DNA of 64,000 nt from Chlorobaculum limnaeum. Its GTDB lineage: Bacteria > Bacteroidota > Chlorobiia > Chlorobiales > Chlorobiaceae. Every line of letters begins with the position of its first letter. Within the stretch, counting starts at the first letter, position 1. Positions 9,492-47,237 of this stretch are shown piece by piece. A program made the position numbers and the translations under genes. The notes beneath the pieces were generated by a model. The model made no database searches. It saw only the letters and a program-made list of their open reading frames with translations, and had not been told where the DNA came from. The DNA lies in NCBI RefSeq assembly GCF_001747405.1, contig NZ_CP017305.1:2436001-2500000 (forward strand). Direction: 5' to 3'.

Positions 9492-9725
9492 ATGGCAAAC
9501 GGTTCAAACAATGATCTGGCAGGTTCCATTTCAGCCCTTATGGACACCTTCGCCAAACTCGGCCAACAACAGCTCGAAATGCTGAACAGTGGCATCAAAG
9601 CTGCTTCAGAAATGGTCGAACCTCTCGGAAAAACCATGACCGATCTGGGTGGCAATGTTGTCAACACTGTCAATCAGGTATTGCAGAACGTGTCATCCAA
9701 TCTCGGTGGCGGCTCTTCCAAGTAA
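9492..9725 (+). CDS. csmB: chlorosome envelope protein, CsmB/CsmF family
   Basis: A 77-residue protein starting MANGSNNDLAGSISALMDTF and containing EPLGKTMTDLGGNVVNTVNQVLQN. This layout is that of the CsmB/CsmF chlorosome envelope family: small amphipathic proteins of the lipid monolayer around the bacteriochlorophyll aggregate. CsmB and CsmF are hard to separate by eye; the N-terminus looks more like CsmB. It has its own strong terminator and no partner gene, in line with high separate expression. The leader of about 230 bases before it shows no other gene. Confidence 0.75.
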   Translation: MANGSNNDLAGSISALMDTFAKLGQQQLEMLNSGIKAASEMVEPLGKTMTDLGGNVVNTVNQVLQNVSSNLGGGSSK

Positions 9726-9746: not shown

Positions 9747-9782
9747 AGCACCTTGCGCTCCCGTGCAAGGTGCTTTTTTTTA
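9747..9782 (+). terminator. terminator of the CsmB-type gene
   Basis: AGCACCTTGC (9747-9756) pairs with GCAAGGTGCT (9765-9774) over an 8-base loop and continues into a run of T. It overlaps the longer possible start of the next ORF, which argues for the later start at 9808. Confidence 0.9.
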
Positions 9783-9807: not shown

Positions 9808-10812
9808 ATGGACGCCCTCGACTCCATCCGCCAGCTTTATCCACCCGGCGAACGCTCGAACCTCGATATTCAGAACATCAAAGGCGACGCCTCGACACGG
9901 CGCTACTTTCGCGTGAAGTCACCGCGCGGCTCAGCCATCGCCTGCATCGACCCGGCCTTCTGTGATGCCACGCTGGGAAGCTACCCGTTCCTCATCGTCC
10001 ACGATCTGTTTGCGTGCCACGACATTCGAGTGCCCGAAGTGTACGAAACATCCGGCGATACGGGAGTGCTGCTGCTCGAAGATTGCGGCAACCTGATGCT
10101 TCAGGACGAAATTCCACAACTCGACGCCGACCAGCTTTCGGCGCGCTACCGCCAGATCATCGACCTGCTCGTCCGCATCCAGTCGATCCGCCCAGACGAA
10201 AAAACGCCGGAATCGGGAATCCCCTTTTCGCTGAGTTTCGACGAAGAAAAGCTCATGTTCGAGTTCGACTTCTTCATCGAACACGCCTTGCGAGGCTATT
10301 TCGCGGAGCGACTCGACGGTCGCGCCATCGCGGAGCTTCGCGGCGAGTTCCTCGCCATCGCCCGGCTGCTGGTGCTGCCGGAGCACTTCGTGCTGAACCA
10401 TCGCGACCTCCACAGCCGCAACATCATGCTCTCCGGCGACGAACCGGTCGTCATCGACTTCCAGGATGCCCGCCTCGGCCTGCCGCAGTACGACGCCGTG
10501 TCGCTTCTGCGCGACTCCTATGTGCGGCTCGACCTGGAGCTGGTCGATGAGCTGAAGCGCTACCATTTCGACCAGCTCGTCCGGCATAATTTGACGACTA
10601 TGGACGAGGCGGAGTATTTCCGGCTTTTCGACCTGATGGCTTTCCAGCGCAACGTCAAGGCTGTCGGCACCTTCTGCTACCAGACCACGGTGATCGGCAA
10701 CCGCGCTTTCGAGCCGTGCATCGCGCCGACCCTCGCTTATCTGCGAGAGTACATCGACGCCCGGCCGGAGCTTGCCACGGCGGGCCGCCTGCTCGAACCG
10801 ATCATTCCCTGA
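9808..10812 (+). CDS. amgK: AmgK-like sugar kinase (APH fold)
   Basis: A 334-residue aminoglycoside-phosphotransferase-fold kinase. It has the catalytic HRDLHSRNIML loop (HxDxxxxN, about residues 213-223) and the metal-binding VIDFQDA (about 230-236). AmgK phosphorylates the anomeric carbon of N-acetylmuramate or GlcNAc in cell-wall recycling; the following MurU-like gene supports this reading. An upstream ATG at 9763 would lie inside the csmB terminator, so 9808 is preferred. It is the first gene of a four-gene plus-strand unit. Other sugars are possible substrates, since the APH fold is broad. Confidence 0.75.
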   Translation: MDALDSIRQLYPPGERSNLDIQNIKGDASTRRYFRVKSPRGSAIACIDPAFCDATLGSYPFLIVHDLFACHDIRVPEVYETSGDTGVLLLEDCGNLMLQDEIPQLDADQLSARYRQIIDLLVRIQSIRPDEKTPESGIPFSLSFDEEKLMFEFDFFIEHALRGYFAERLDGRAIAELRGEFLAIARLLVLPEHFVLNHRDLHSRNIMLSGDEPVVIDFQDARLGLPQYDAVSLLRDSYVRLDLELVDELKRYHFDQLVRHNLTTMDEAEYFRLFDLMAFQRNVKAVGTFCYQTTVIGNRAFEPCIAPTLAYLREYIDARPELATAGRLLEPIIP

Positions 10813-10820
10813 AATTCGCG

Positions 10821-11750
10821 ATGAACGCCTTCGTCCTCGCGGCGGGCTTCGGCACCCGCCTGCAACCTATAACCGACGCGACGCCCAAGCCGCTCGTGCC
10901 GGTGCTGAACGTGCCGAGCCTCTGCTACTCGCTCTTCCTGCTCGCTGAGGCGGGCATCCGCAAAGCGATCATCAACATCCACCACCACACGGATCAGTTG
11001 CGAGACTTTTTCGATCGGCGCGACTTCGGCAACCTCGAAATCGTGCTTTCGGAGGAGCGCGATATTCTCGGCACCGGCGGCGGGCTGAAGAAGTGCGAAG
11101 CGCTGCTTGACGATGGCGATTTCGTGCTCATCAACAGCGACATCATCAGTGACATGAATCTGCGGGCGTTGATCGAGACGCACCGGCGCTCTGGTTGCGG
11201 TGGCACGCTCGCGCTCCACGAAACACCGCTGGCGGCGCGGATCGGCCACGTCGGCGTGCGCGACGGCCGGGTGCTCGACTTCAGGAACCAGCGCGGCACC
11301 GGCCTCTCGTCTCCCTTCATCTACACCGGCACGGCGGTACTGAGTCCGGCGATTTTCCGGCACCTGAAAACGGAGTTTTCCGGCATCGTCGAAACCGGCT
11401 TTTACGGACTGGTGGACAACGAAGGTCTCGCCTCTTTCGAGCACTGCGGAGTGTGGCAGGACATCGGCACCCTGCCGAACTTTTACCGCGCGAACCTCGA
11501 CGATAATTTGCGTATCCTTCAGCTTGCGGAGCGCATGAAGCGGGCAATCGGCCTCTTTCCGCGGATGGTCTCGGATGAAGCGTCGATCAGCGCCGATGCC
11601 CGCGTCGAAAATTCGGTGATCGGCGCGAACTGCTCGATAGCCGCCGGAGCCGCCGTGGAGCATTCGGTGCTCCTGCCCGGCGCGACCGTCGAGAGTGCCG
11701 AGGTTGTCCGCAACGCCATCGTCGCGCCCGGCATCCGCATTTCGCTTTGA
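10821..11750 (+). CDS. murU: MurU-like sugar-1-phosphate nucleotidyltransferase
   Basis: A 309-residue nucleotidyltransferase. The start MNAFVLAAGFGTRLQPITDATPK carries the GxGTRLxPxT...PK signature and Lys, followed by INSDIISD metal site near residue 105. The C-terminus has hexapeptide-like turns (ADARVENSVIGANCSIAAGA) suggesting a short left-handed beta helix. MurU joins UTP and MurNAc-1-phosphate to give UDP-MurNAc, bypassing de novo synthesis. The start 9 bases after the kinase stop, and the kinase itself, point to this AmgK-MurU route. A glucose- or mannose-1-phosphate role cannot be excluded from sequence alone. Confidence 0.75.
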   Translation: MNAFVLAAGFGTRLQPITDATPKPLVPVLNVPSLCYSLFLLAEAGIRKAIINIHHHTDQLRDFFDRRDFGNLEIVLSEERDILGTGGGLKKCEALLDDGDFVLINSDIISDMNLRALIETHRRSGCGGTLALHETPLAARIGHVGVRDGRVLDFRNQRGTGLSSPFIYTGTAVLSPAIFRHLKTEFSGIVETGFYGLVDNEGLASFEHCGVWQDIGTLPNFYRANLDDNLRILQLAERMKRAIGLFPRMVSDEASISADARVENSVIGANCSIAAGAAVEHSVLLPGATVESAEVVRNAIVAPGIRISL

Positions 11751-11777
11751 GTTCCTGACATCGCAAACAGCAACGAC

Positions 11778-12944
11778 ATGGTCATCAACGGTCTCGACAT
11801 TCTGCTCCGGAATCCCGAAATGCTGAAGAACCGGCGCGTCGGCCTGATCGCCAACCAGACCTCAGTCTCGATACAGCTCGAATACTCCTGGACGCTGCTT
11901 CGCCGCGCCGGCATGGAATTGACGAGAATCTTCTCGCCGGAGCACGGCCTCTTCGCCGTCGAACAGGATCAGATCGCCGTCTCGCGCCAGCCCGACACCG
12001 GCTGCCAGATCGTGAGCCTCTACGGCGACAGCGAGCAGTCACTCGCCCCGGCCCGCGAGCTGCTTGAAGGACTCGACATCGTGCTCTTCGACATTCAGGA
12101 TGTCGGCTCGCGCTACTACACCTACGTCAACACGCTGGCACTCTTCATGGAGGCCGCCTCGGGACTCGACATCGAGATCATGGTGCTCGACCGCCCGAAC
12201 CCGCTCGGCGGCGAGCTGATCGAAGGGCCGCAGCTCGATCCGGCCTTCCACTCCTTCGTCGGCGTCATGCCGGTGCCGGTGCGCCACGGACTCACCGCCG
12301 GAGAGATCGCCCACTTTTACCGCGACTACAAGAAGCTCGACATCGAGTTGAGCGTCGTCACCATGCAGAACTGGTCGCGCGACATGCTCTTCCCGGAGAC
12401 CGGCCTGCCGTGGGTTCCGCCCTCGCCGAACATGCCGTCGTTCCCGGTCGCCGAGGTCTACCCCGGCATGTGCCTCTTCGAGGGGCTGAACGTTTCGGAG
12501 GGGCGCGGCACCACCACGCCGTTCCTGCTCTCCGGCGCGTCATTTGTCGACCCGGAGGAGCTTGCCGCGCGGCTCGCCTCGATGCCGCTCGAAGGCGTGG
12601 TGTTCCGCCCGACCTGGTTCCGCCCGACCTTCCACAAATACGCTGGCGAGGCCATTGGCGGCATCTACCTTCACGTGACCGACCACGCCCGCTTCCGCCC
12701 CTTCGCCACAGCGGTCGCCATGACCTGCGCCTTGCGGGAGCTGTATCCCGACAGGCTCCGGTTCCTCGACGGAGTCTATGAGTTCAGGGACGACATTCCG
12801 GCATTCGACCTGCTTGCCGGAAGCGGCGTGATCCGCTCGATGATTCTCGATGGAACTCCGGCGGAGAGCGTCATCGCTTCGTGGGAAAGGGACGAGGCGG
12901 CGTTCGCGGCGATCAAACCCAATTTCCATCTGTACGACGCCTGA
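11778..12944 (+). CDS. namZ: NamZ-type exo-beta-N-acetylmuramidase (DUF1343)
   Basis: A 388-residue DUF1343 protein. Visible landmarks are GLIANQTSVS (residues 22-31), FSPEHGLF with Glu-His (54-61), DIQDVGSRYYTYVNTL, DRPNPLGG and a late SEGRGTTTPF. Members of this family include NamZ, which releases single MurNAc residues from peptidoglycan fragments. The preceding kinase and uridylyltransferase genes would use the released MurNAc, which fits well. No signal peptide is seen; the related proteins vary in location. The reaction is assigned from the family and context, not from catalytic-residue proof here. Confidence 0.8.
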   Translation: MVINGLDILLRNPEMLKNRRVGLIANQTSVSIQLEYSWTLLRRAGMELTRIFSPEHGLFAVEQDQIAVSRQPDTGCQIVSLYGDSEQSLAPARELLEGLDIVLFDIQDVGSRYYTYVNTLALFMEAASGLDIEIMVLDRPNPLGGELIEGPQLDPAFHSFVGVMPVPVRHGLTAGEIAHFYRDYKKLDIELSVVTMQNWSRDMLFPETGLPWVPPSPNMPSFPVAEVYPGMCLFEGLNVSEGRGTTTPFLLSGASFVDPEELAARLASMPLEGVVFRPTWFRPTFHKYAGEAIGGIYLHVTDHARFRPFATAVAMTCALRELYPDRLRFLDGVYEFRDDIPAFDLLAGSGVIRSMILDGTPAESVIASWERDEAAFAAIKPNFHLYDA

Positions 12945-12999
12945 GGGTTTATTGATACGCCCGCCGCGCCGTTTCATTGACAACAGCAGACTCGACCCG

Positions 13000-14412
13000 A
13001 TGCAACCTCTCGATTACGCCATCATCATCCTCTTCCTGGCGGGCAACATGCTGCTCGGACTCTGGCAGGGGCGAAGCAACAAACAGACCAGCGACTACTT
13101 CCTCGGCGGCCACAAACTGCCGTGGTTCATGGTGATGCTCTCCATCGTCGCCACCGAAACCTCGGTGCTGACCTTCGTGAGCGTGCCCGGCCTGGCCTAC
13201 CGGGGCGACTGGAGCTTCCTCCAGCTCTCGTTCGGCTACATCGTCGGCAGGATTCTGGTCAGCTTCATTCTGCTCCCCACCTATTTCAAGCAGGGCGTTA
13301 CCTCGATCTACGAGGTGATCGGCATGAGGTTCGGCCACGGCATCCAGAAAACCGCCTCGGTTATCTTTCTGTTGACGCGCATTCTTGGCGACGGCATCCG
13401 GTTTCTGGCGACCGGCGTGGTGGTGCAGGCCGTCACCGGCTGGCCGCTGTCGCTCTCGGTGCTGGTGATCGGCATCGTCACCCTCGTCTATACCATTTCA
13501 GGCGGGTTGAAAACCGTCGTCTGGCTCGACAGCATCCAGTTTGCGCTCTACCTTGGCGGCGGCATCGTCACGATCCTCTTCATCCTCGCCCGGCTCGACG
13601 CGCCGCTGAACGATGTGCTCGCGCCGCTCCTCGCCGTCGGAAAGCTGCGGATCATCGACACTGATCCGAATGTTCTTACCAACCCGCTCTCGTTTTTCAG
13701 CGCATTTTCCGGCGGAATCCTGCTCTCACTCTGTTCGCACGGCGTCGATTATCTGATGGTGCAACGCGTACTCGGCTGCGACGGACTGGCATCCGCCCGC
13801 AAAGCCATGATCGCCAGCGGCATCTTCGTGCTGTTCCAGTTCGCGCTCTTCCTCCTGGCGGGTTCGCTCATCTACGTTTTTTTCAATGGAGCGCCGCTGG
13901 TCAAGGATCGCGAATTCACCGCATTTATCGTCCAGACGCTGCCCGCCGGTCTCAAAGGCTTGCTGCTGGCCGGAATTCTCTCAGCCGCCATGTCAACCCT
14001 CGCCTCGTCGATCAATTCGCTGGCCGCCTCGACCGTCACCGACCTCATGAAGGGCAGGGCATCGCTCAACGCTTCGCGCCTCATCAGCGTCGCCTGGGCC
14101 ACGGTGCTGATCGGCATTGCGCTGGCCTTCAATGAGAACGACAAGGCCATCGTCATGCTCGGCCTCGAAATCGCCTCGTTCACCTATGGCGGACTGCTCG
14201 GCCTCTTCCTGCTTTCGAAAAGCCGCCGCGATTTCCGTTCATCCAGCCTCGTCGCCGGACTGCTTGCAAGCATGGGCGTCGTTTTCCTGCTCAAATTTCT
14301 CGGACTGGCGTGGACCTGGTACATTGCGGTTTCAGTCATGCTCAACATCCTGACGACGGTCGGAGTCGAGGCATTGCTTCCTGAGAACAAGGAGTCTTTC
14401 GCTCGGAAATAA
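13000..14412 (+). CDS. sodium:solute symporter (SSS family)
   Basis: A 470-residue membrane protein with about 13 hydrophobic segments and SSS features: SDYFLGGHKLPWFMVMLSI near the N-terminus and TISGGLKTVVWLDSIQF around residues 163-180. A longer ORF starts at 12850 but overlaps the NamZ gene and adds a basic non-membrane stretch, so the ATG at 13000 is preferred. As the last gene of the amgK-murU-namZ unit, it probably imports a cell-wall sugar such as MurNAc; SSS members do carry sugars and sialic acid. The substrate is inferred from context only. Confidence 0.8.
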   Translation: MQPLDYAIIILFLAGNMLLGLWQGRSNKQTSDYFLGGHKLPWFMVMLSIVATETSVLTFVSVPGLAYRGDWSFLQLSFGYIVGRILVSFILLPTYFKQGVTSIYEVIGMRFGHGIQKTASVIFLLTRILGDGIRFLATGVVVQAVTGWPLSLSVLVIGIVTLVYTISGGLKTVVWLDSIQFALYLGGGIVTILFILARLDAPLNDVLAPLLAVGKLRIIDTDPNVLTNPLSFFSAFSGGILLSLCSHGVDYLMVQRVLGCDGLASARKAMIASGIFVLFQFALFLLAGSLIYVFFNGAPLVKDREFTAFIVQTLPAGLKGLLLAGILSAAMSTLASSINSLAASTVTDLMKGRASLNASRLISVAWATVLIGIALAFNENDKAIVMLGLEIASFTYGGLLGLFLLSKSRRDFRSSSLVAGLLASMGVVFLLKFLGLAWTWYIAVSVMLNILTTVGVEALLPENKESFARK

Positions 14413-14988: not shown

Positions 14989-16140
14989 ATGGACCGTTAC
15001 ACACCGGATTCGTCGGCAGGCGCTGACAACGGGGTACCCGAGGTGCACATTGCGGCGCTTGAGAAAAAAATCGCTATGCTTGAAAGCAGGGCTTCGTTTG
15101 CCGAACAGCAATCGAAGGCGCTCGAGGTTGCCCTTGAATCAGCCCGTGCCGGTTGCTGGGAATGGGATAGGGATAGCGATACGATCCGTATCGACCGGCA
15201 ATGGGCCGTCATAAGCGGCATCGTTCCCGGAAGGTTCGATGCGCTGACGCTCGAAGAGTGGCGCGAACTCTGCCATCCGGACGATCTCGGTACAGTCGCG
15301 AAATCGATAGACGAGTATCTGAACGGCAACGGAGAGCTTCTGGAGTTTGAACTGCGGGTGCGACATGACGGTGACGGATGGATCCGGGTGCTCGACCGGG
15401 GCAAAATCACTCGCCGCGACCCGTACGGCAAGCCGTCGCTGCTTGCCGGATCACGGCAAATCATCACGGACAGGCTCGACGCGGGCGAATCGCGGGCGAA
15501 AAAAGCACAGGAAGAGCTGCAAGCACTGATCGACCATATTCCGGGCGCAGTGTACCATATTGACATGGCTGGGCAAACGACGATACGCTCCAGTCCACCC
15601 GAATTTCTGAAAGCGCTCGCTTCCGGGCATCAGGGAACGCCTCTGTTCAACACCCTTTCGATGATTCACCACGATGACCGGCACATGGTTGCCGGCGCGT
15701 ACAGCAAACTCAAGGAAGCTCCGCAATCCCGGACACTGGTGTACCGGATAGTCACCCCGGAGGGAGGAGTGCGCTGGATCGAAGACCACATGAAATCATC
15801 GTTCTCGGATGACGGGCTTTTTTCAGGAATCGACGGCCTCCTGTGCGAAATAACCGACCGCATCAACGGTCTTGAAGAGGCGCAACGGCTTGAATCGCAA
15901 TTGCGCAAATCACAAAGACTTGAAACCATCGGCACTCTTGCCGGCGGTATCGCTCACGATTTCAACAACATCCTCACTCCGATTCTCGGTTACGCTGAAA
16001 TGGGACTCTCCAGCACTGGCGAGGAGGATCCGATGCACGAGTACTTCGCCGAAATCACGCAGGCCGTCGAACGCGCTCAAAAGCTCGTTGGCCAGATTCT
16101 GACCTTAGCCGGGCAGAAGAGGGTAAGGCCATGCCTGTAA
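14989..16140 (+). CDS. PAS-domain histidine kinase, N-terminal part (frameshifted)
   Basis: 383 residues. After a short coiled coil (IAALEKKIAMLESRA) come two PAS regions (about 45-160 and 170-290) and a dimerisation/phosphoacceptor helix with AGGIAHDFNNILTPILGY (His about 322). The frame then ends in QKRVRPCL just as the ATPase domain should begin, and the ATPase half continues in another frame at 16131. Adding one C near 16104 would give ILTLSRAEEGKAMPV and fuse the halves into one hybrid kinase of about 686 residues. As written, this half can carry the phosphoryl group but has no kinase domain. Confidence 0.8.
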   Translation: MDRYTPDSSAGADNGVPEVHIAALEKKIAMLESRASFAEQQSKALEVALESARAGCWEWDRDSDTIRIDRQWAVISGIVPGRFDALTLEEWRELCHPDDLGTVAKSIDEYLNGNGELLEFELRVRHDGDGWIRVLDRGKITRRDPYGKPSLLAGSRQIITDRLDAGESRAKKAQEELQALIDHIPGAVYHIDMAGQTTIRSSPPEFLKALASGHQGTPLFNTLSMIHHDDRHMVAGAYSKLKEAPQSRTLVYRIVTPEGGVRWIEDHMKSSFSDDGLFSGIDGLLCEITDRINGLEEAQRLESQLRKSQRLETIGTLAGGIAHDFNNILTPILGYAEMGLSSTGEEDPMHEYFAEITQAVERAQKLVGQILTLAGQKRVRPCL

Positions 16141-17048
16141 GCATCCAGGAGATCATCGACGAAGCCATACAGCTCCTGCGCCCTTCGCTGCCTTCGTCCG
16201 TTATCATCGAAGAGCACATCGACCATTCGTGCCGCAACGTTCTTGCCGACCCGAACCAGATGCACCAGGTCGTCGTGAATCTCTGTACCAATGCCGTCCA
16301 TGCCATGGAGCAAACCGGAGGAGTGCTGAAGATCGGCCTCAGGGAAATCATCGCCGGAAACGGCATTCCCTCGGTCGTGCCGAAGCTGCCTGAAGGCAAC
16401 TATGTCGAACTGACCATTTCCGATACCGGAACCGGAATGGACGAACTGACCGCCGAACGCATTTTCGAACCATTCTTCACGACCAAATCGATCGATAAAG
16501 GCGTAGGACTTGGTCTGTCGGTCGTCCATGGCATCGTTATCGCTGCCAACGGACATCTCAACGTCGAAAGTGAAAAGGGAAAAGGATCGACATTTCATGT
16601 CTGGCTGCCTGCTAACGAAAATAAAGCCAGCGCCAAAGCTGAGGAAAAGCCCCAGCCAGCGAAATACGCGGCCAATATTCTCTTCATCGACGACGAGCCT
16701 GCCGCGGTTCAGATGGTGTCGATCATGATGACCAAACTCGGTTACAACATACGCGCCGAAAAATCTCCGGCTGAGGCGTTGAAAATCTTCCGGGAACAAG
16801 CGGATCAGTTCGACCTGGTCATCACCGATCTGACCATGCCCGAAATGACCGGCATCCAGTTGACCGGCGAGATCCATAAAATCTCGCCCTCGATCCCGGT
16901 CATTCTGATGACCGGATACGGTAAAATCATTGACCACGACACGCCGCTGAAACACTATGGAATAACCCGTCTGCTGAAAAAACCGGTCAAGCTCGCCCAG
17001 TTGGCCTCGGCGGTCAACGAAGTACTCTCATCAACAAAATCTTCTTAA
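16131..17048 (+). CDS. histidine kinase ATPase domain plus receiver, C-terminal part (frameshifted)
   Basis: 305 residues: an HATPase_c domain with the N box (QVVVNLCTNAVHAM, near residues 44-57), DTGTGMD and GLGLSVVHG glycine boxes, then a receiver domain from about residue 180 with LFIDDEP, TDLTMPEMTG and a late KKPV Lys. Its ATG overlaps the end of the upstream half by ten bases, so coupled translation of two separate proteins is conceivable. The simpler reading is one hybrid kinase broken by a one-base loss. Confidence 0.8.
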   Translation: MPVSIQEIIDEAIQLLRPSLPSSVIIEEHIDHSCRNVLADPNQMHQVVVNLCTNAVHAMEQTGGVLKIGLREIIAGNGIPSVVPKLPEGNYVELTISDTGTGMDELTAERIFEPFFTTKSIDKGVGLGLSVVHGIVIAANGHLNVESEKGKGSTFHVWLPANENKASAKAEEKPQPAKYAANILFIDDEPAAVQMVSIMMTKLGYNIRAEKSPAEALKIFREQADQFDLVITDLTMPEMTGIQLTGEIHKISPSIPVILMTGYGKIIDHDTPLKHYGITRLLKKPVKLAQLASAVNEVLSSTKSS

Positions 17049-19326: not shown

Positions 19327-20646
19327 ATGAAAATCCATCGTCCAACCGTTTCGGCAATCATTCTTGCGATCACGCTCTCCTCCCCAACCATTGCCCATGC
19401 CTATAACCGCGATCAACTGAAGCTGCTTCAGAAGAGCGTCGCCGAGTGGAACGCCATGCGCAGTCAGCAGCCGGAGCTTGCCATCGATCTCTCCAAAGCC
19501 AACCTTGAAGACGCGAACCTCAAGGGGGCAAATCTGTCGAAGGCCAATCTCTCCAAATCCGACCTCAGCGGCGCGTCACTCGACCAGGCAAACCTCGAAG
19601 GAGCAAACCTTGGCATGGCTTACCTGAAAAAGACGAACATGAAAGCCGTCAACGCTTCGCGAGCCTGGCTGGCGGGCGCGAACCTGAGCGGCGCGTTCAT
19701 GAAGGATGCCTCGCTGAAGGAGGCCAATCTTGCAGGCGCGAACCTGCGGTGGGTCAAACTGGGTGGAGCCGATCTGGAGCGGGCAAGCCTCAAGAATACG
19801 GTGCTGTTCGAAGCGGATTTCGAGCGGGCGAACCTCAAGGGGGTGCAATTCAACAATGCCCGCTTCATCGGAAACGCCGTGCTGAAGGACGCCGTGCTGT
19901 CAAGCAACACCGTGCTGCCCTCTGGCGAGCCGGTCACTCGCGGCTGGGCGACGATGCGCGATGCCCGTTTCGTCAGGGAAGCTCCCGCCGCGCCGCCGGA
20001 ATTCGCGCCACCAGTCATGGCTTCGCCGGTCGTCATTCCGGAGAACATGCCTGCCGGTAGCGCCCAGGCCGTTCCGACGCCGCCTGCGCCCGATGTGAGG
20101 GAGGTCGAGGAGTGGAATGCGATGCGGCAGAACAATCCCGAAACGAAAATCGAAATGACCGAGGAGAAACTCGGCCAAACCGAACTTGCCGGCGTCGATC
20201 TGAGAGCGGCCTCCCTGTCGAAATCCGATTTCGAACGCGCCAACCTCGACAAGGCCAACATGGCCGGTGCCAACATGGCCGGTGTGAATCTCGAAAGAGC
20301 CGACATGAAAGAGGCGAACCTGAAAGGGGCGAATCTCGAAGGCGCAAACCTCGACCGCGCCTACATGAAAAATGCCGATCTTTCCGATGCGAATCTCAAG
20401 GGCGCTGTGCTTTACGGGGCAACGCTTTACGGAGCGAATCTCGATGGCGCGAACCTGACTAATGCTTCACTGTTCGACGCAAATCTGGAAAAAGCCTCCC
20501 TGAAAGGGGCCGACCTGACAGGCGCAACGCTGACGGGCGTTAACCTGACCGATGCGATCATCTCCTCGACAACAATCACCCCTTCGGGCAAAAAGGCGAC
20601 GCGAAGCTGGGCAATGCTCAACAATGCCGTTTTCACCGATAAATAA
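19327..20646 (+). CDS. secreted pentapeptide-repeat protein with two repeat domains
   Basis: A 439-residue protein with a signal peptide (cleavage likely after AHA, residue 25) and two long runs of A(N/D)LxxA pentapeptides, about residues 55-205 and 290-425. Each run is introduced by the same module: EWNAMR then a PE pair (at about 38-50 and 259-272), and each ends with a TRGWA or TRSWA sequence before a short tail. So the protein is an internal duplication. The repeats form right-handed quadrilateral beta helices. Periplasmic location is expected; the partner is unknown. Confidence 0.85.
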   Translation: MKIHRPTVSAIILAITLSSPTIAHAYNRDQLKLLQKSVAEWNAMRSQQPELAIDLSKANLEDANLKGANLSKANLSKSDLSGASLDQANLEGANLGMAYLKKTNMKAVNASRAWLAGANLSGAFMKDASLKEANLAGANLRWVKLGGADLERASLKNTVLFEADFERANLKGVQFNNARFIGNAVLKDAVLSSNTVLPSGEPVTRGWATMRDARFVREAPAAPPEFAPPVMASPVVIPENMPAGSAQAVPTPPAPDVREVEEWNAMRQNNPETKIEMTEEKLGQTELAGVDLRAASLSKSDFERANLDKANMAGANMAGVNLERADMKEANLKGANLEGANLDRAYMKNADLSDANLKGAVLYGATLYGANLDGANLTNASLFDANLEKASLKGADLTGATLTGVNLTDAIISSTTITPSGKKATRSWAMLNNAVFTDK

Positions 20647-28754: not shown

Positions 28755-30506
28755 ATGAATCAAAAAACATACCGGGCATTCATCAGCTATTCCCATGCCG
28801 ATGAAAAGCAGGCTTCGTGGTTGCAAAAAAAGCTTGAAAGCTATACGATTCCGGCGCAAATCAGAAAAGCGTACGGCGAAATCATCCCGAAACACCTCCG
28901 TCCGGTGTTTCGCGACAAAACCGACCTGCGCCCCGGCAATCTCGGAAAATTGATCTCCTCGGAGCTCGATGATTCCGGATATCTGATCGTCGTCTGCTCT
29001 GAAGCCTCGAAACAGTCAACATGGGTGAACCGCGAGATAGAGCACTTCCGGCAGGCGGGCAACGCCGACCGGATCATCCCGGTCGTCACTGGCTGCAAGC
29101 AGCAGCGCGATATCACCGATTGTTACCCCGCCGCCCTCGATAAGAGCAACCAGCTCGGCATCTCGTTGCACACACTTGGTAAAACCAGAACCCTGCTCAG
29201 CATCATCGCGACCATTCTCGATATCCGCTTCGACGATCTGTACAAACGCCACCAGAAAGCTCAAAAGAAAAAATTGGTACTGCTCGTTTTGTTATCGCTG
29301 CTCATCCTGCTCATTGCATCGGCCCCCGCCAGAGAAATTTTCAGACTCTGGCAGCAACAACAGGCGCTCACCAGCGCCGCATCGGTCACTCAGCATATTG
29401 CTTCGTCACTCATGCAATCGAACTCACCGACTGTCGAAGAGCGAATGACGAATCTCAACAACACCTGGGTAGCCGAAGGCAACAACGAAAACAATGTCAT
29501 CTTCCCGCTGGAACGCAGAAGAGAAAAATCAAAAATCTTTACCGGCGACCTTCGACGAGAGCTTGATGCAGCATTCGTAATGGAGCACCTTTTACCCGGC
29601 GGCAAAGAATCGTTCAGGGAAAAAATCGGACGCCTCAACAGCCAGAACGATCGTTCGACGCAAGCCATCATCAGCTCTGCGGAGTTCATCATCAAGCACA
29701 GAAAAAACGCCCTTGCAGAACTGAAAGAGATCGAGGATTCACGCTCGCTCCAAGACGCCCAACGGCATATAGGTTACTTTGAATCAGAGCTTCAGATGAT
29801 GAGGCTCTACGGCATGACTCTTTTCTGGCAACTGCATCAAACGCTGAAACCCCTGGCTGATGACGGCCACCCCGAAGCCCAACTGGCGCTCGCTCTTGCC
29901 AGCTCGATTCCTTTCGACCAGCAGACCGTGCTCGATAAAATCGAAGCGTCACTCGGCCAGAAAAAGAGACTCATCAACAACGCGAAAACCGGATTAGAAA
30001 CGGCTAAACTGCGTCTGTCAGCAGGGTACGACAAAATCAGGCGTACCTGCGAACCTTTGCCGGACGATCCGCCCGAGCAGGTCTGGGGAAAAATGATGCG
30101 GCTTGTCGCTTTGGGTCTGATTCCCGAAGCGCTCTCGAACCTCGACTATTATGAAAAGATGATGAAAAAGAAACGTGACGATCCGTCGGCCTATACTGTA
30201 CCTGCCAGGGTGTTCATCAAGGAGTACCTCCACAAAGCCGAGGAGGGCGGAGTCGTCGTCTTCGGCTTCGAGGGAAACCGCCATCACGGCTCACTCAAGA
30301 CCGGCGACATCATCACCGCCGTCGACGGCCGGCGCATCCTGTTTGCCGATGATTTCATCGCCGCCCGAAAAGCAGCAAAAACAAATGCGCCGGAACTGGC
30401 GATCTATCGCCACAATCGGCAAACAGGGCGGCTCGAGCCAATCTCCGTCAGACTCTCGCCAAACGATCCGAAGGTCGGTATGATGGATCTGGTTGAAAAG
30501 TTGTAA
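28755..30506 (+). CDS. TIR-transmembrane-PDZ protein (putative NADase effector)
   Basis: 583 residues. Residues 5-155 form a TIR domain: AFISYSHADEKQASWLQKKLE at the start and STWVNREIEHF, where Glu94 occupies the position of the NADase catalytic Glu. A single helix (about 173-190, KLVLLVLLSLLILLIASA) follows, then a long helical region (195-495). The C-terminus (about 498-575) is PDZ-like, with GSLKTGDIITAVDGRRI. TIR first, membrane helix and PDZ last is an unusual order: the PDZ would face the periplasm if the TIR is cytoplasmic, suggesting that envelope stress or protein ends trigger NAD+ cleavage. It heads a three-gene cluster. Function is inferred. Confidence 0.8.
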   Translation: MNQKTYRAFISYSHADEKQASWLQKKLESYTIPAQIRKAYGEIIPKHLRPVFRDKTDLRPGNLGKLISSELDDSGYLIVVCSEASKQSTWVNREIEHFRQAGNADRIIPVVTGCKQQRDITDCYPAALDKSNQLGISLHTLGKTRTLLSIIATILDIRFDDLYKRHQKAQKKKLVLLVLLSLLILLIASAPAREIFRLWQQQQALTSAASVTQHIASSLMQSNSPTVEERMTNLNNTWVAEGNNENNVIFPLERRREKSKIFTGDLRRELDAAFVMEHLLPGGKESFREKIGRLNSQNDRSTQAIISSAEFIIKHRKNALAELKEIEDSRSLQDAQRHIGYFESELQMMRLYGMTLFWQLHQTLKPLADDGHPEAQLALALASSIPFDQQTVLDKIEASLGQKKRLINNAKTGLETAKLRLSAGYDKIRRTCEPLPDDPPEQVWGKMMRLVALGLIPEALSNLDYYEKMMKKKRDDPSAYTVPARVFIKEYLHKAEEGGVVVFGFEGNRHHGSLKTGDIITAVDGRRILFADDFIAARKAAKTNAPELAIYRHNRQTGRLEPISVRLSPNDPKVGMMDLVEKL

Positions 30507-30605
30507 TATTCAGTGAGACTTGCGAGCATCGGAAAATGACTTTTTGCATAGTTCAGCAGTACCTCAGGAGTATCATCACGCAACTTCAAACCCGGAGGCA
30601 CCTCG

Positions 30606-32003
30606 ATGGCAACATGGCAAATCAACGATATCCGCAAAACAGCGGCCAACAAAGCCTGCATCATCTTCATTCACGGCTTCAACGGCGATCCCACATTCAC
30701 GTGGGGCAGATTTCCGGATCTGCTCTGCCACGAGCCTACCATGAACGGATGGGATATTGTGTGTTTCGGTTATAAAAGCTCTCTCGCCCCAGACCTGACC
30801 GGCATCTGGAGAGGAAATCCGCCAATACAGACCATTGCTGATTCCCTGAACACCTTCATCAAATCGAAATTTGCTTCCCGGTACGATGCCTTCACCATGA
30901 TCGCTCACAGCATGGGCGGTCTGGTCGTTCAGCGCGCCTTGCTCGATGACGCTGTGCTGGCCCAAAAGACTGACAAGGTCATCCTGTTCGGCACTCCCAG
31001 TTTCGGTCTGGACAAAGCCGCGCTTTTCCAGCTTCCGATCCTGAGCGAATTGTTCCGACAGCCTCGTGACATGGGCAAGAAATGCAAGTTCATCAAATCA
31101 CTCCGAAGCGACTGGAAACAGCAATTCGGGACAGCGATCCCGTTCGGTTTTCTTGCCGTCGCCGGTTCGGAAGACGAGTTCGTGCCCCGTTCATCATCGA
31201 TTGACGGCTTTCTCCGGGACCAGTACGCGGTAGTACCCGGCGATCATCTGACCCTCGTCAAGCCGGAAAAAGCAACGGATGCCAGCTTCACCATTGCTCA
31301 CGGGTTCATTACTGAAAAAGCCGGCTACCTTGGCCCGTGGGGTTCGGACGCCCTTGCCTGCGCGAGACGCAAACGGCAACAGGTCATCGGTCAACTCGAA
31401 AAAAACCGGGCGAATCTGGATCGGCAGGCTTTGGTAAACCTGGCGCTGGCGCTGGATGAACTGGGCAGACGCAAGGAGGCCATGAACGTACTCGGCGATG
31501 CCCGGCGACACGGCACGGATGCGATGGGCGTTTTGGCCGGACGTCACAAACGCAACTGGCTCCAGGACAGAATCGATGAGGAAGCTCGCAGCGCCCTCGC
31601 GCTGTATGCAGATGCATACGAAATCGCCGAGGCGAATAACGATTTCGCCCAAGCCTACTACCACGGCATCAACCTCGCATTTCTGGCGCTCGTGTATGAA
31701 AACGATCTTGGCAAAGCTCGACGCATCGCTCATCATGTACTCGAACATTGTGCGGATGCGAAACAAAACGAAAAAGCCAACGAGCGCCTGTGGCGAATGG
31801 CTACGGAGGGCGAGGCCAACCTGCTACTCGGCAATATCGATGTCGCGATTGAAAGCTTCACAAGCGCGCTGCAAGGGCCGCCCGTACCAGAACCATGGCA
31901 ACTCACCTCAACCGCCAGGCAGGCACTGTTCATTGCCGACAAACTTGGTGATGAAGCGCTTGCTCAATCCATGCTGAAACTTTTTTCCGGAGACCAGCCA
32001 TGA
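30606..32003 (+). CDS. alpha/beta hydrolase with TPR-like C-terminus
   Basis: 465 residues. Residues 15-230 form a lipase-like alpha/beta hydrolase: FIHGFNGDPTFTW, nucleophile elbow AHSMGG (Ser102), likely acid in GSEDEF (Asp190) and His214 in GDHLTL. From about 250 the protein is helical with TPR-like pairs (LVNLALALDELGRRKEAMNVL; AYYHGINLAFLALVYEN), like the TPR/TRAFs-binding segment found in bacterial conflict proteins. Its stop overlaps the next ATG by four bases, so the two are translationally coupled. A phospholipase or esterase effector is plausible. Confidence 0.8.
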   Translation: MATWQINDIRKTAANKACIIFIHGFNGDPTFTWGRFPDLLCHEPTMNGWDIVCFGYKSSLAPDLTGIWRGNPPIQTIADSLNTFIKSKFASRYDAFTMIAHSMGGLVVQRALLDDAVLAQKTDKVILFGTPSFGLDKAALFQLPILSELFRQPRDMGKKCKFIKSLRSDWKQQFGTAIPFGFLAVAGSEDEFVPRSSSIDGFLRDQYAVVPGDHLTLVKPEKATDASFTIAHGFITEKAGYLGPWGSDALACARRKRQQVIGQLEKNRANLDRQALVNLALALDELGRRKEAMNVLGDARRHGTDAMGVLAGRHKRNWLQDRIDEEARSALALYADAYEIAEANNDFAQAYYHGINLAFLALVYENDLGKARRIAHHVLEHCADAKQNEKANERLWRMATEGEANLLLGNIDVAIESFTSALQGPPVPEPWQLTSTARQALFIADKLGDEALAQSMLKLFSGDQP

Positions 32004-33406
32004 ACAAGCCGTTGTGTTTCGTCATCATGCCCTTCGGCACGAAACCCGACCCGGCCGGAGGGGCAGATATCGATTTCGACGCCATTTACCATTCGGCAAT
32101 CGAACCGGCCATCGCCGATGCCGACATGGAGCCAATCCGCGCCGACGAGGAGCGCACTGGCGGCATCATCCACAAGGCGATGTTCGAGCGGCTGCTGTTG
32201 TGCGACTACGCCATCGCCGACCTGACCACGGCCAACGCCAACGTCTTTTACGAACTCGGCGTCCGCCACGCCGCCCGGCCACGAACGACCATGACCATCT
32301 TTGCCAGGCATCAGCCGATCCCGTTCGACATCGGCTACCTGCGCTCACTGCCCTACACCCTGGGCAAAAAAAATTGCTTTGGCGATGACGAGGCTCCCGC
32401 CCTGCGCACCGCCGTGGCCAAAAAACTTCGCGACCTGCGAAACCTCACCATCAACGAAGCCCCGATCGACAGCCCGCTGTTCACGCTTCTTTCCGACTGG
32501 AAACCCGGCGACATCGCCCGCCTCAAGACCGACCTGTTCCGTGACCGTGCGCAAGCCAACGAACAGTTAAAGCGCCGTCTGGCGGCAATTCGCGACAAAA
32601 GCAAACACGAAAACACCCGGCAGGAGGCCCATGAATTGTTGCAGGCATTCCGCAAGGAGATCGAACCCGTCGATGCAGCCGATGCGGTCACCATTGTCGA
32701 TCTGATGCTCACCTATCGCGCCCTGAAGGACTGGAACGGCATGATCGCGCTCCACGATGCCATGCCTGAAATGCTGAAGCGCCAGATTCTGGTACGCGAA
32801 CAACTGGGGTTTGCCTACAACCGCCGGGCGGGCGAAAACAAGGATCTGACCGACCGAGCCGAAGCCCTGCGCATCCTCACCGAGGTGGATGAACAGCAAG
32901 GCCCCAGTTCGGAAACGCTCGGCCTGATCGGACGCATTCACAAAGATCAGTGGAAAGAGGCCCTCGAAGCAGGAGAGTCGATCGCCGCCCTCGGCCATCT
33001 CGACCAGGCCATCGACGCCTACCGGCGAGGTTATCTGGCAGACCTGCGCGACGCTTATCCCGGCATCAACCTTCTGACCCTGCTCGACATACGCGGCGAC
33101 GCCGAATCGCTCACTGAAAAATCACGCATACTGCCGGTCGTCCGTTTCGCCGTCGAACAGCGCCTTGTCGGCACAACGTCAGACTACTGGGATCACGCCA
33201 CCATGCTCGAACTTTCGGTGCTGGAGAACGACAACAAACAGGCGATGAAGCACCTGGCCAAAACGGTCGCGATCATCCGGGAAAGATGGGAACCGGAAAC
33301 TACAGCCCGAAATCTGAAAATGATCATACAAGCAAGAATGGTGCGAGGAGAAGAAACCGACTGGCTGAAACAGATCATTGCCGAACTCGACAAGCGTTCA
33401 GCATAG
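32000..33406 (+). CDS. deoxyribosyltransferase-like (DRHyd) domain plus TPR/TRAFs-binding protein
   Basis: 468 residues. The first 140 residues form a nucleoside 2-deoxyribosyltransferase-like fold: CFVIMPFGTK, IYHSAIEPAI, then AIADLTTANANVFYELGVRHA, with Asp74 and Glu85 in the expected nucleotide/ribose pocket. The remainder is a helical repeat array resembling the TRAFs-binding (DUF4071) region that follows a similar domain in animal ASK kinases. The ATG sits in an ATGA overlap with the hydrolase gene. Together with the TIR gene, two different enzyme classes that can cut nucleotide glycosidic bonds are present. Role as sensor or nucleotide-processing component is inference. Confidence 0.8.
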   Translation: MNKPLCFVIMPFGTKPDPAGGADIDFDAIYHSAIEPAIADADMEPIRADEERTGGIIHKAMFERLLLCDYAIADLTTANANVFYELGVRHAARPRTTMTIFARHQPIPFDIGYLRSLPYTLGKKNCFGDDEAPALRTAVAKKLRDLRNLTINEAPIDSPLFTLLSDWKPGDIARLKTDLFRDRAQANEQLKRRLAAIRDKSKHENTRQEAHELLQAFRKEIEPVDAADAVTIVDLMLTYRALKDWNGMIALHDAMPEMLKRQILVREQLGFAYNRRAGENKDLTDRAEALRILTEVDEQQGPSSETLGLIGRIHKDQWKEALEAGESIAALGHLDQAIDAYRRGYLADLRDAYPGINLLTLLDIRGDAESLTEKSRILPVVRFAVEQRLVGTTSDYWDHATMLELSVLENDNKQAMKHLAKTVAIIRERWEPETTARNLKMIIQARMVRGEETDWLKQIIAELDKRSA

Positions 33407-46289: not shown

Positions 46290-47237
46290 ATGAAAATTCT
46301 GATCCCCAAAGCGCTCCGCAGGGAAGAGGTCATCGGCCTGATCTCGCCATCTTCGACCTGCGCCGAGCCGGAAAGAATCCAGCGGGCCGTCACCTATCTT
46401 GAACGCTGTGGCTACAGGGTCAAAACCTCGCTGTACCTGAACCGTTCCGAGCACGACCCCGCGCACACTGACCGTTACAAGCTTCACGATCTCCATCAGA
46501 TGTTCGCCGACCGCGAAGTCCGTGCCATCTTCTGCCTGCGCGGCGGAGCCGGAGCCACGCGGCTGCTCGACAGAATCGACTACGCCCTGATCGCAGCCAA
46601 TCCGAAAATCCTCGTCGGCTACTCCGACATCACGGCGCTGTCGCTCGCGGTGTTCCGGAAAACCGGCCTCGTCAACTTTTCCGGCCCGATGGCGGTCACC
46701 GACCTTTTCGAACCAAGCAGCTATACCGAAGAGCACCTCTGGGGGATGCTCACCGATCCGGGCTATTCGAAGAGCCTCGTCAATTTCGACGGGCACGAGG
46801 TCGGTTGCGTCAAACCCGGAGCCGTCGCCGGACGGCTGATCGGCGGCAACCTCTCGGTGCTCTCCTCGCTGGTCGGAACGCCGTACCTGCCGTCGTTCAG
46901 CGGCAGCCTCCTGTTTACCGAGGATGTCAACGAACCGGCCTACCGGATCGACCGGATGCTCTCGCATCTGTTCAACGCCGGTCTGGCGCAGAAGTGCCGC
47001 GGCCTCATGTTCGGCCAGTTCAGCAAAAACCCCGCCGACGAAAACCGCGACTATCGCTTCGACAAGATTTTCACCTATTACGCAAACCGGATGCACGATG
47101 GCGCGCCGGTGATGACCGGACTTTCTTACGGTCACATCCGCGAATTGATGACCCTGCCGGTCGGGGCGCGCTGCCGCCTGGAGATTTCGCCGGAACAGTT
47201 CTCTTTCGGGGCGGCGGAGGCGGTGGTCTCGATCTGA
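46290..47237 (+). CDS. LD-carboxypeptidase family protein (S66)
   Basis: 315 residues from the ATG at 46290. GLISPSSTCAEPERI opens the fold, FCLRGGAGATRLLDRID precedes the nucleophile in GYSDITAL (Ser about 111), and Glu and His of the S66 relay are found in LFTEDVNEPAYRIDRM and SYGHIRELM. LD-carboxypeptidases remove the terminal D-Ala from recycled cell-wall tetrapeptides; related MccF-type enzymes cleave toxic peptide-nucleotides. The presence of a MurNAc salvage operon in the same window favours the recycling role. Confidence 0.82.
   Translation: MKILIPKALRREEVIGLISPSSTCAEPERIQRAVTYLERCGYRVKTSLYLNRSEHDPAHTDRYKLHDLHQMFADREVRAIFCLRGGAGATRLLDRIDYALIAANPKILVGYSDITALSLAVFRKTGLVNFSGPMAVTDLFEPSSYTEEHLWGMLTDPGYSKSLVNFDGHEVGCVKPGAVAGRLIGGNLSVLSSLVGTPYLPSFSGSLLFTEDVNEPAYRIDRMLSHLFNAGLAQKCRGLMFGQFSKNPADENRDYRFDKIFTYYANRMHDGAPVMTGLSYGHIRELMTLPVGARCRLEISPEQFSFGAAEAVVSI

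Follow-up and report, generated by a model that had tools for sequence, protein, structure and literature searches.

A family-wide operon of Chlorobiaceae that probably salvages N-acetylmuramate through AmgK-like and MurU-like enzymes

Most of what is understood about recycling of the bacterial cell wall comes from gammaproteobacteria, along with a small number of other lineages. Among the known schemes close to the locus described here is the Pseudomonas-type pathway, composed of AmpG, NagZ, AnmK, MupP, AmgK and MurU. Our literature search found no paper on wall recycling in green sulfur bacteria. Here we analyse an operon encoding an AmgK-like sugar kinase, a MurU-like nucleotidyltransferase, a NamZ-type exo-muramidase and a sodium symporter, located in a 64,000-nucleotide stretch of the Chlorobaculum limnaeum genome (NZ_CP017305.1, positions 2,436,001 to 2,500,000; hereafter the window). 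The host genome is a single contig of 2.80 Mb and its nearest named relatives are Chlorobaculum. We propose that the operon probably serves wall-sugar salvage, i.e. that it rebuilds UDP-N-acetylmuramate (UDP-MurNAc) without breaking N-acetylmuramate (MurNAc) down.

With the Pseudomonas-type pathway the locus shares an AmgK-type kinase and a MurU-like transferase, predicted to lead to UDP-MurNAc past MurA and MurB, as well as the lack of MurQ. In contrast, the family of the window has no AnmK and no AmpG scoring over the cut-off, NamZ and a symporter are part of the operon, the NagZ-like GH3 protein is exported and the transferase carries an additional beta-helix tail. MupP would be dispensable if no MurNAc-6-phosphate arises. 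Since AnmK and AmpG were searched for and not found in this family, we do not assign the operon to that pathway. In Tannerella forsythia, NamZ/YbbC is encoded beside MurT, MurK and MurQ, and a separate AmgK/MurU pair constitutes an anabolic branch (PMC7670621, PMC5388701), both enzymes of which work in E. coli (PMC13041923). The resemblance lies in that branch and in the position of NamZ next to a MurNAc transporter, as proposed here for the symporter; however, the present genome lacks MurQ and possesses MurA. In the NamZ/NagZ/MurQ system of B. subtilis, MurNAc passes through MurQ. There, as proposed here, NamZ is the source of free MurNAc, but MurQ is absent from the present genome and the operon NamZ is devoid of a signal peptide, whereas B. 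subtilis NamZ is extracellular (PMC13204101). Finally, an AmgK-like kinase paired with a MurU-like transferase occurs in Bacteroidota and in family f2 of the same order; unlike in the operon, the kinase there extends into a fused RapZ C-terminal domain, and the short MurU beside it is without the tail, with AnmK present in f2 (fusions at L044 14306-15778, - strand, and L045 8628-10088, - strand). Long frames resembling the f2 fusion occur across Bacteroidota. Taken together, the operon is very probably a family-wide variant of AmgK/MurU salvage that is fed by a cytoplasmic NamZ and operates without AnmK or AmpG. Among the papers we found, only one review mentions AmgK as well as NamZ, and it draws no connection between the two.

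The operon comprises the following genes.

9808-10812, + strand: AmgK-like sugar kinase (APH fold), 334 aa; APH 98 bits; proposed 1-kinase of MurNAc (and N-acetylglucosamine, GlcNAc)
10821-11750, + strand: MurU-like nucleotidyltransferase with C-terminal beta-helix tail, 309 aa; proposed MurNAc-1-phosphate uridylyltransferase
11778-12944, + strand: NamZ-type exo-beta-N-acetylmuramidase, cytoplasmic form, 388 aa; NamZ_N 252 bits, NamZ_C 164 bits
13000-14412, + strand: sodium:solute symporter (SSS) family protein, 470 aa; SSF 104 bits; proposed importer of MurNAc or MurNAc-GlcNAc

The genes run head to tail at 9808-14412, exactly the extent given by a preliminary description of the stretch, and are separated by 8, 27 and 55 bases. 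That description had proposed conversion of salvaged MurNAc to UDP-MurNAc. Salvage is still the best reading, now with independent support, but the order of events suggested at that time, in which NamZ frees the sugar prior to import, misplaces the operon NamZ, which is devoid of a signal peptide; the exported copy is a second gene at another site.

The set is a family trait, near-universal in Chlorobiaceae. Across 98 genomes of the order, 86 of them Chlorobiaceae and 12 others, the kinase was detected in 84 of the 86 family genomes, every one of which also has the transferase, whereas the other two lack both, so that the earlier wording, a set known in scattered groups, was too weak. The two genomes devoid of the pair, G014 and G049, likewise carry a single NamZ each, while nearly all others have at least two, and because these assemblies are 92% and 99% complete, respectively, joint loss of the set is likely. 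Gene order was assessed in 78 Chlorobiaceae loci from named genomes, fetched by a transferase scan: all four genes are found in the same order on one strand in 73, contig ends truncate four loci, and a single locus is a genuine exception. The preservation of order and strand in 73 of 78 loci indicates that the neighbourhood is not due to chance.

Whether other recycling genes accompany the set, as the preliminary description asked for murQ and nagZ, could be answered for both. MurQ over the cut-off (302) is absent from all 86 family genomes and from both of family f2, as opposed to its presence in 10/10 genomes of families f3 and f4. MurQ-model matches of about 20-40 bits in Chlorobiaceae were discounted against that cut-off, being partial, located in reading frames some 600 or 220 residues long, and of the kind to be expected from other SIS-domain proteins. 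AnmK was likewise found in 0/86 family genomes, compared to 11/12 in the rest of the order. No AmpG exceeded the cut-off in any of the 98 genomes and none was detected at E 0.001 in the genome of the window; AmpG-model matches in 22 genomes (18-34 bits, cut-off 350) were rejected. In this family the operon appears to substitute for the AnmK/MurQ route that related families have. NagZ, on the other hand, has a counterpart: one of the two GH3 proteins of the genome is NagZ-like (191 bits, cut-off 207), and both begin with signal peptides (L053 1612-2796, + strand; L054 2430-4238, + strand). E. coli NagZ is cytoplasmic.

The two NamZ copies similarly differ in predicted location, signal peptides being judged by eye from the N-termini throughout. 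In the operon protein NamZ_N and NamZ_C (NamZ, GH171) both surpass the Pfam gathering scores, and the PEHG, DIQD and LDRPNP motifs are kept in the operon and exported copies alike, as in the solved structures 4k05 and 4jja. The operon copy has neither a signal peptide nor an in-frame start further upstream, and its 14 orthologues share the same conserved start, also without a signal peptide (15/15 copies read); hence, it should act in the cytoplasm. The second NamZ, encoded near 1.42 Mb (405 aa, 39% identical to the operon copy), has a clear signal peptide. It therefore seems that the cell has an outer and an inner set of enzymes, with the operon representing the inner one.

For the kinase, the two AmgK equivalogs NF045759 and NF045698 are the best NCBIfam models (115 and 59 bits), and the protein combines the APH fold with the catalytic HRDxHxxN and DFQDA motifs of AmgK. 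Across 13 orthologues the corresponding NHRDxHxRN and IDFQDAR do not vary, and 3csv, the sole relative with a solved structure, displays HRDFHxxN and IDFQDAKLG at matching positions. The transferase consists of an NTP_transferase domain (76 bits) followed by a left-handed beta-helix tail at the C-terminus, and is hence longer than MurU, which is regarded as a minimal enzyme (model length 226). When the catalytic domain is scored alone the MurU model is best, with 116 bits versus 95 for mannose-1-phosphate guanylyltransferase; in the orthologue L036 the values are 142 and 104. Its LGTGGGLK motif does not vary among 15 orthologues and lies opposite TGGG in the MurU structure 4y7t, a position at which guanylyltransferases have TAGP. 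Both enzymes nevertheless stay under the equivalog cut-offs (see below), and we therefore refer to them as AmgK-like and MurU-like and do not claim formal family membership; MurNAc is their proposed sugar.

A tie to wall synthesis comes from outside the family. Among the best 80 matches of the genome scan, the only ones beyond Chlorobiaceae are from two metagenome-assembled genomes of Spirochaetota, in both of which the kinase-transferase pair is preceded by the run murC, short gene, ftsA, ftsZ (murC, ftsA and ftsZ in spirochaetal loci being named from sequence, not by family search). A wider search covered 247 Spirochaetota genomes and recovered the kinase in 60 of them. In the close-type loci (n=20; L161, L162, L204-L221), ftsZ is directly upstream of the kinase in 16 of the 19 that are readable, the transferase is nearby in 15/20 and NamZ in 8/20, and in one spirochaete (L209) kinase, transferase, NamZ and symporter follow each other in that order. 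Also in agreement with the arrangement in Chlorobiaceae, the NamZs beside the spirochaetal pair are without signal peptides, exported or lipoprotein-like NamZs being separate genes. As ftsZ, the end of the murC-ftsA-ftsZ run, lies immediately upstream, the kinase is tied to wall synthesis independently of the operon. In a kinase tree rooted at the midpoint, the Chlorobiaceae form one clade (100/99) within the spirochaetal group, adjoining, with moderate support (91/82), the two genomes that have the symporter in the locus as well; the kinase-RapZ fusions of Bacteroidota and f2 constitute a separate clade. This nesting among spirochaetes favours transfer from a spirochaete, from which the set was probably acquired; with this rooting, the direction is inferred.

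Salvage is thus well supported by the mutual exclusion with AnmK/MurQ, by the joint absence in two genomes and by the division and cell-wall cluster of spirochaetes. We propose that it would operate using the following mechanism. The exported second NamZ and the exported NagZ-like GH3 protein probably make importable pieces in the periplasm, and the symporter would carry MurNAc or the MurNAc-GlcNAc disaccharide across the inner membrane along with sodium. Once disaccharides are inside, the cytoplasmic NamZ would cut MurNAc off their non-reducing end. The AmgK-like kinase would phosphorylate MurNAc at C1, and the MurU-like enzyme would add UMP to yield UDP-MurNAc, which may join wall synthesis at MurC, past MurA and MurB. 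If the kinase acts on GlcNAc too, like its NCBIfam namesake, neither sugar of the disaccharide would be lost. Because MurQ is lacking, MurNAc could only return to the wall, compatible with recycling in an autotroph.

The symporter has an SSF domain (PF00474) over the cut-off, and the substrates of its solved SSS relatives are iodide, vitamins, monocarboxylates and sialic acid. SiaT, which transports the last of these, binds its carboxylate through Ser60, Thr63 and Arg135 (PMC5931594). Ser60 and Thr63 correspond to S55 and T58 of the symporter, both invariant, and the helix of the Arg135 position holds invariant arginines at 127 and 134. This pattern would suit an acidic sugar but is no more specific than that; MurNAc is a candidate solute.

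Several observations weigh against salvage as proposed. The kinase is far under the AmgK equivalog cut-offs (115 versus 550 and 59 versus 500), and neither the window transferase (116) nor L036 (142) reaches the MurU cut-off of 250 (NF045761). Position Arg135 of SiaT falls on a glycine in the symporter, whose solute cannot be read from sequence. The AnmK/MurQ contrast lies between families, and hence counts as a small number of evolutionary events. At several spirochaetal loci no transferase lies close to the kinase, and the exceptional Chlorobiaceae locus, L148 (the place of G022), is devoid of NamZ over the 2 kb downstream of the transferase, the NamZ copies of G022 being found on other contigs. 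Lastly, with its tail included, the full-length transferase matches the mannose-1-phosphate guanylyltransferase model best (138 versus 115 bits), and taken together with the tail itself, as found in guanylyltransferases, and with GMPPB as closest solved relative, this would suit a kinase and transferase that activate another sugar for envelope glycans (e.g. a GDP-mannose- or heptose-type nucleotide), with NamZ and the symporter merely sharing the operon. We regard this as quite improbable, as the catalytic domain alone and its TGGG signature point to MurU, NamZ linkage is strict in Chlorobiaceae, the pair disappears jointly with one NamZ, and the spirochaetal copies reside in a division and cell-wall cluster. 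The guanylyltransferase reading was ranked second once the catalytic domain had been scored alone.

It is unlikely that the set mainly takes up peptidoglycan of neighbours or dead cells rather than recycling the own wall: the exported NamZ and the two exported GH3 proteins could act on foreign wall, and the operon has its own importer, but return of MurNAc to the wall alone, in the absence of a catabolic MurQ, suits own turnover, as do the near-universal presence in the family and the division cluster of spirochaetes. Somewhat less unlikely, though still doubtful, is that the symporter moves an unrelated solute and that wall fragments enter by another transporter, which would reduce the operon to the cytoplasmic half of the pathway. 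The breadth of the SSS superfamily and the lack of an adjoining symporter at most spirochaetal kinase-transferase loci are in line with this; its fixed fourth position in 73/78 loci and in spirochaete L209, however, and the lack of an AmpG over the cut-off among the genomes searched, argue for the symporter as part of the salvage route.

In its most far-reaching form, wall-sugar salvage would be the work of a self-contained cassette, consisting of cytoplasmic NamZ, the AmgK-like and MurU-like enzymes and an SSS carrier of MurNAc disaccharide, that was passed between the Chlorobiaceae ancestor and Spirochaetota and supplanted AnmK/MurQ. We put this forward tentatively, at slightly less than even chances. 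If true, it would represent a third route recovering UDP-MurNAc, fed by NamZ and without anhydroMurNAc or MurNAc-6-phosphate, and the symporter would be a new class of muro-sugar carrier.

Two further features of the window bear on the operon.

9747-9774, + strand: terminator-like hairpin (12-pair stem and T run; consensus scan) at the upstream edge of the operon
46290-47237, + strand: LD-carboxypeptidase (Peptidase_S66), cytoplasmic, without signal peptide; Peptidase_S66 126 bits, S66C 114 bits

The hairpin parts the operon from a small upstream gene; terminator-like sites in the region are in total not above shuffled sequence, the case for this one being the length of its stem. That gene (9492-9725, + strand) encodes a 77-residue protein without a Pfam or NCBIfam match, which we take to resemble a chlorosome envelope protein. 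No Rfam elements were found in the region. The LD-carboxypeptidase gene, already reported in the preliminary description, is indeed in the window but 32 kb from the operon, of which it is not a member; it scores 229 bits against the muramoyltetrapeptide carboxypeptidase model (cut-off 378) and is a possible partner in stem-peptide recycling. Just downstream of the operon, a hybrid histidine kinase (14989-17048) is split into a PAS-HisKA part (14989-16140) and, in another frame, a HATPase and receiver part (16131-17048). As both share one frame in 8/8 relatives checked, the window copy must carry a frameshift, either a true mutation or an error of sequencing. Further along, 19327-20646 (+ strand) encodes an exported pentapeptide-repeat protein of 439 aa with two repeat blocks, and three adjacent genes at 28755-33406 (+ strand; 583, 465 and 468 aa), whose N-termini resemble TIR, hydrolase and TIR-like proteins, possibly form a defence cluster.

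In conclusion, a compact cassette that would replace AnmK/MurQ across an entire family makes the question of wall recycling in green sulfur bacteria directly testable, and the adjacency to ftsZ provides a function-linked context for the same genes in spirochaetes. If our proposal holds, MurNAc probes should label these phototrophs. MurA of the host retains the LPGGC motif carrying the target cysteine and should hence be sensitive to fosfomycin. The AmgK/MurU route of Pseudomonas confers intrinsic resistance to this compound (PMC5371407); by analogy, tolerance via the operon is possible. The cassette also suggests a potential way around MurA inhibition in Chlorobiaceae and spirochaetes alike.

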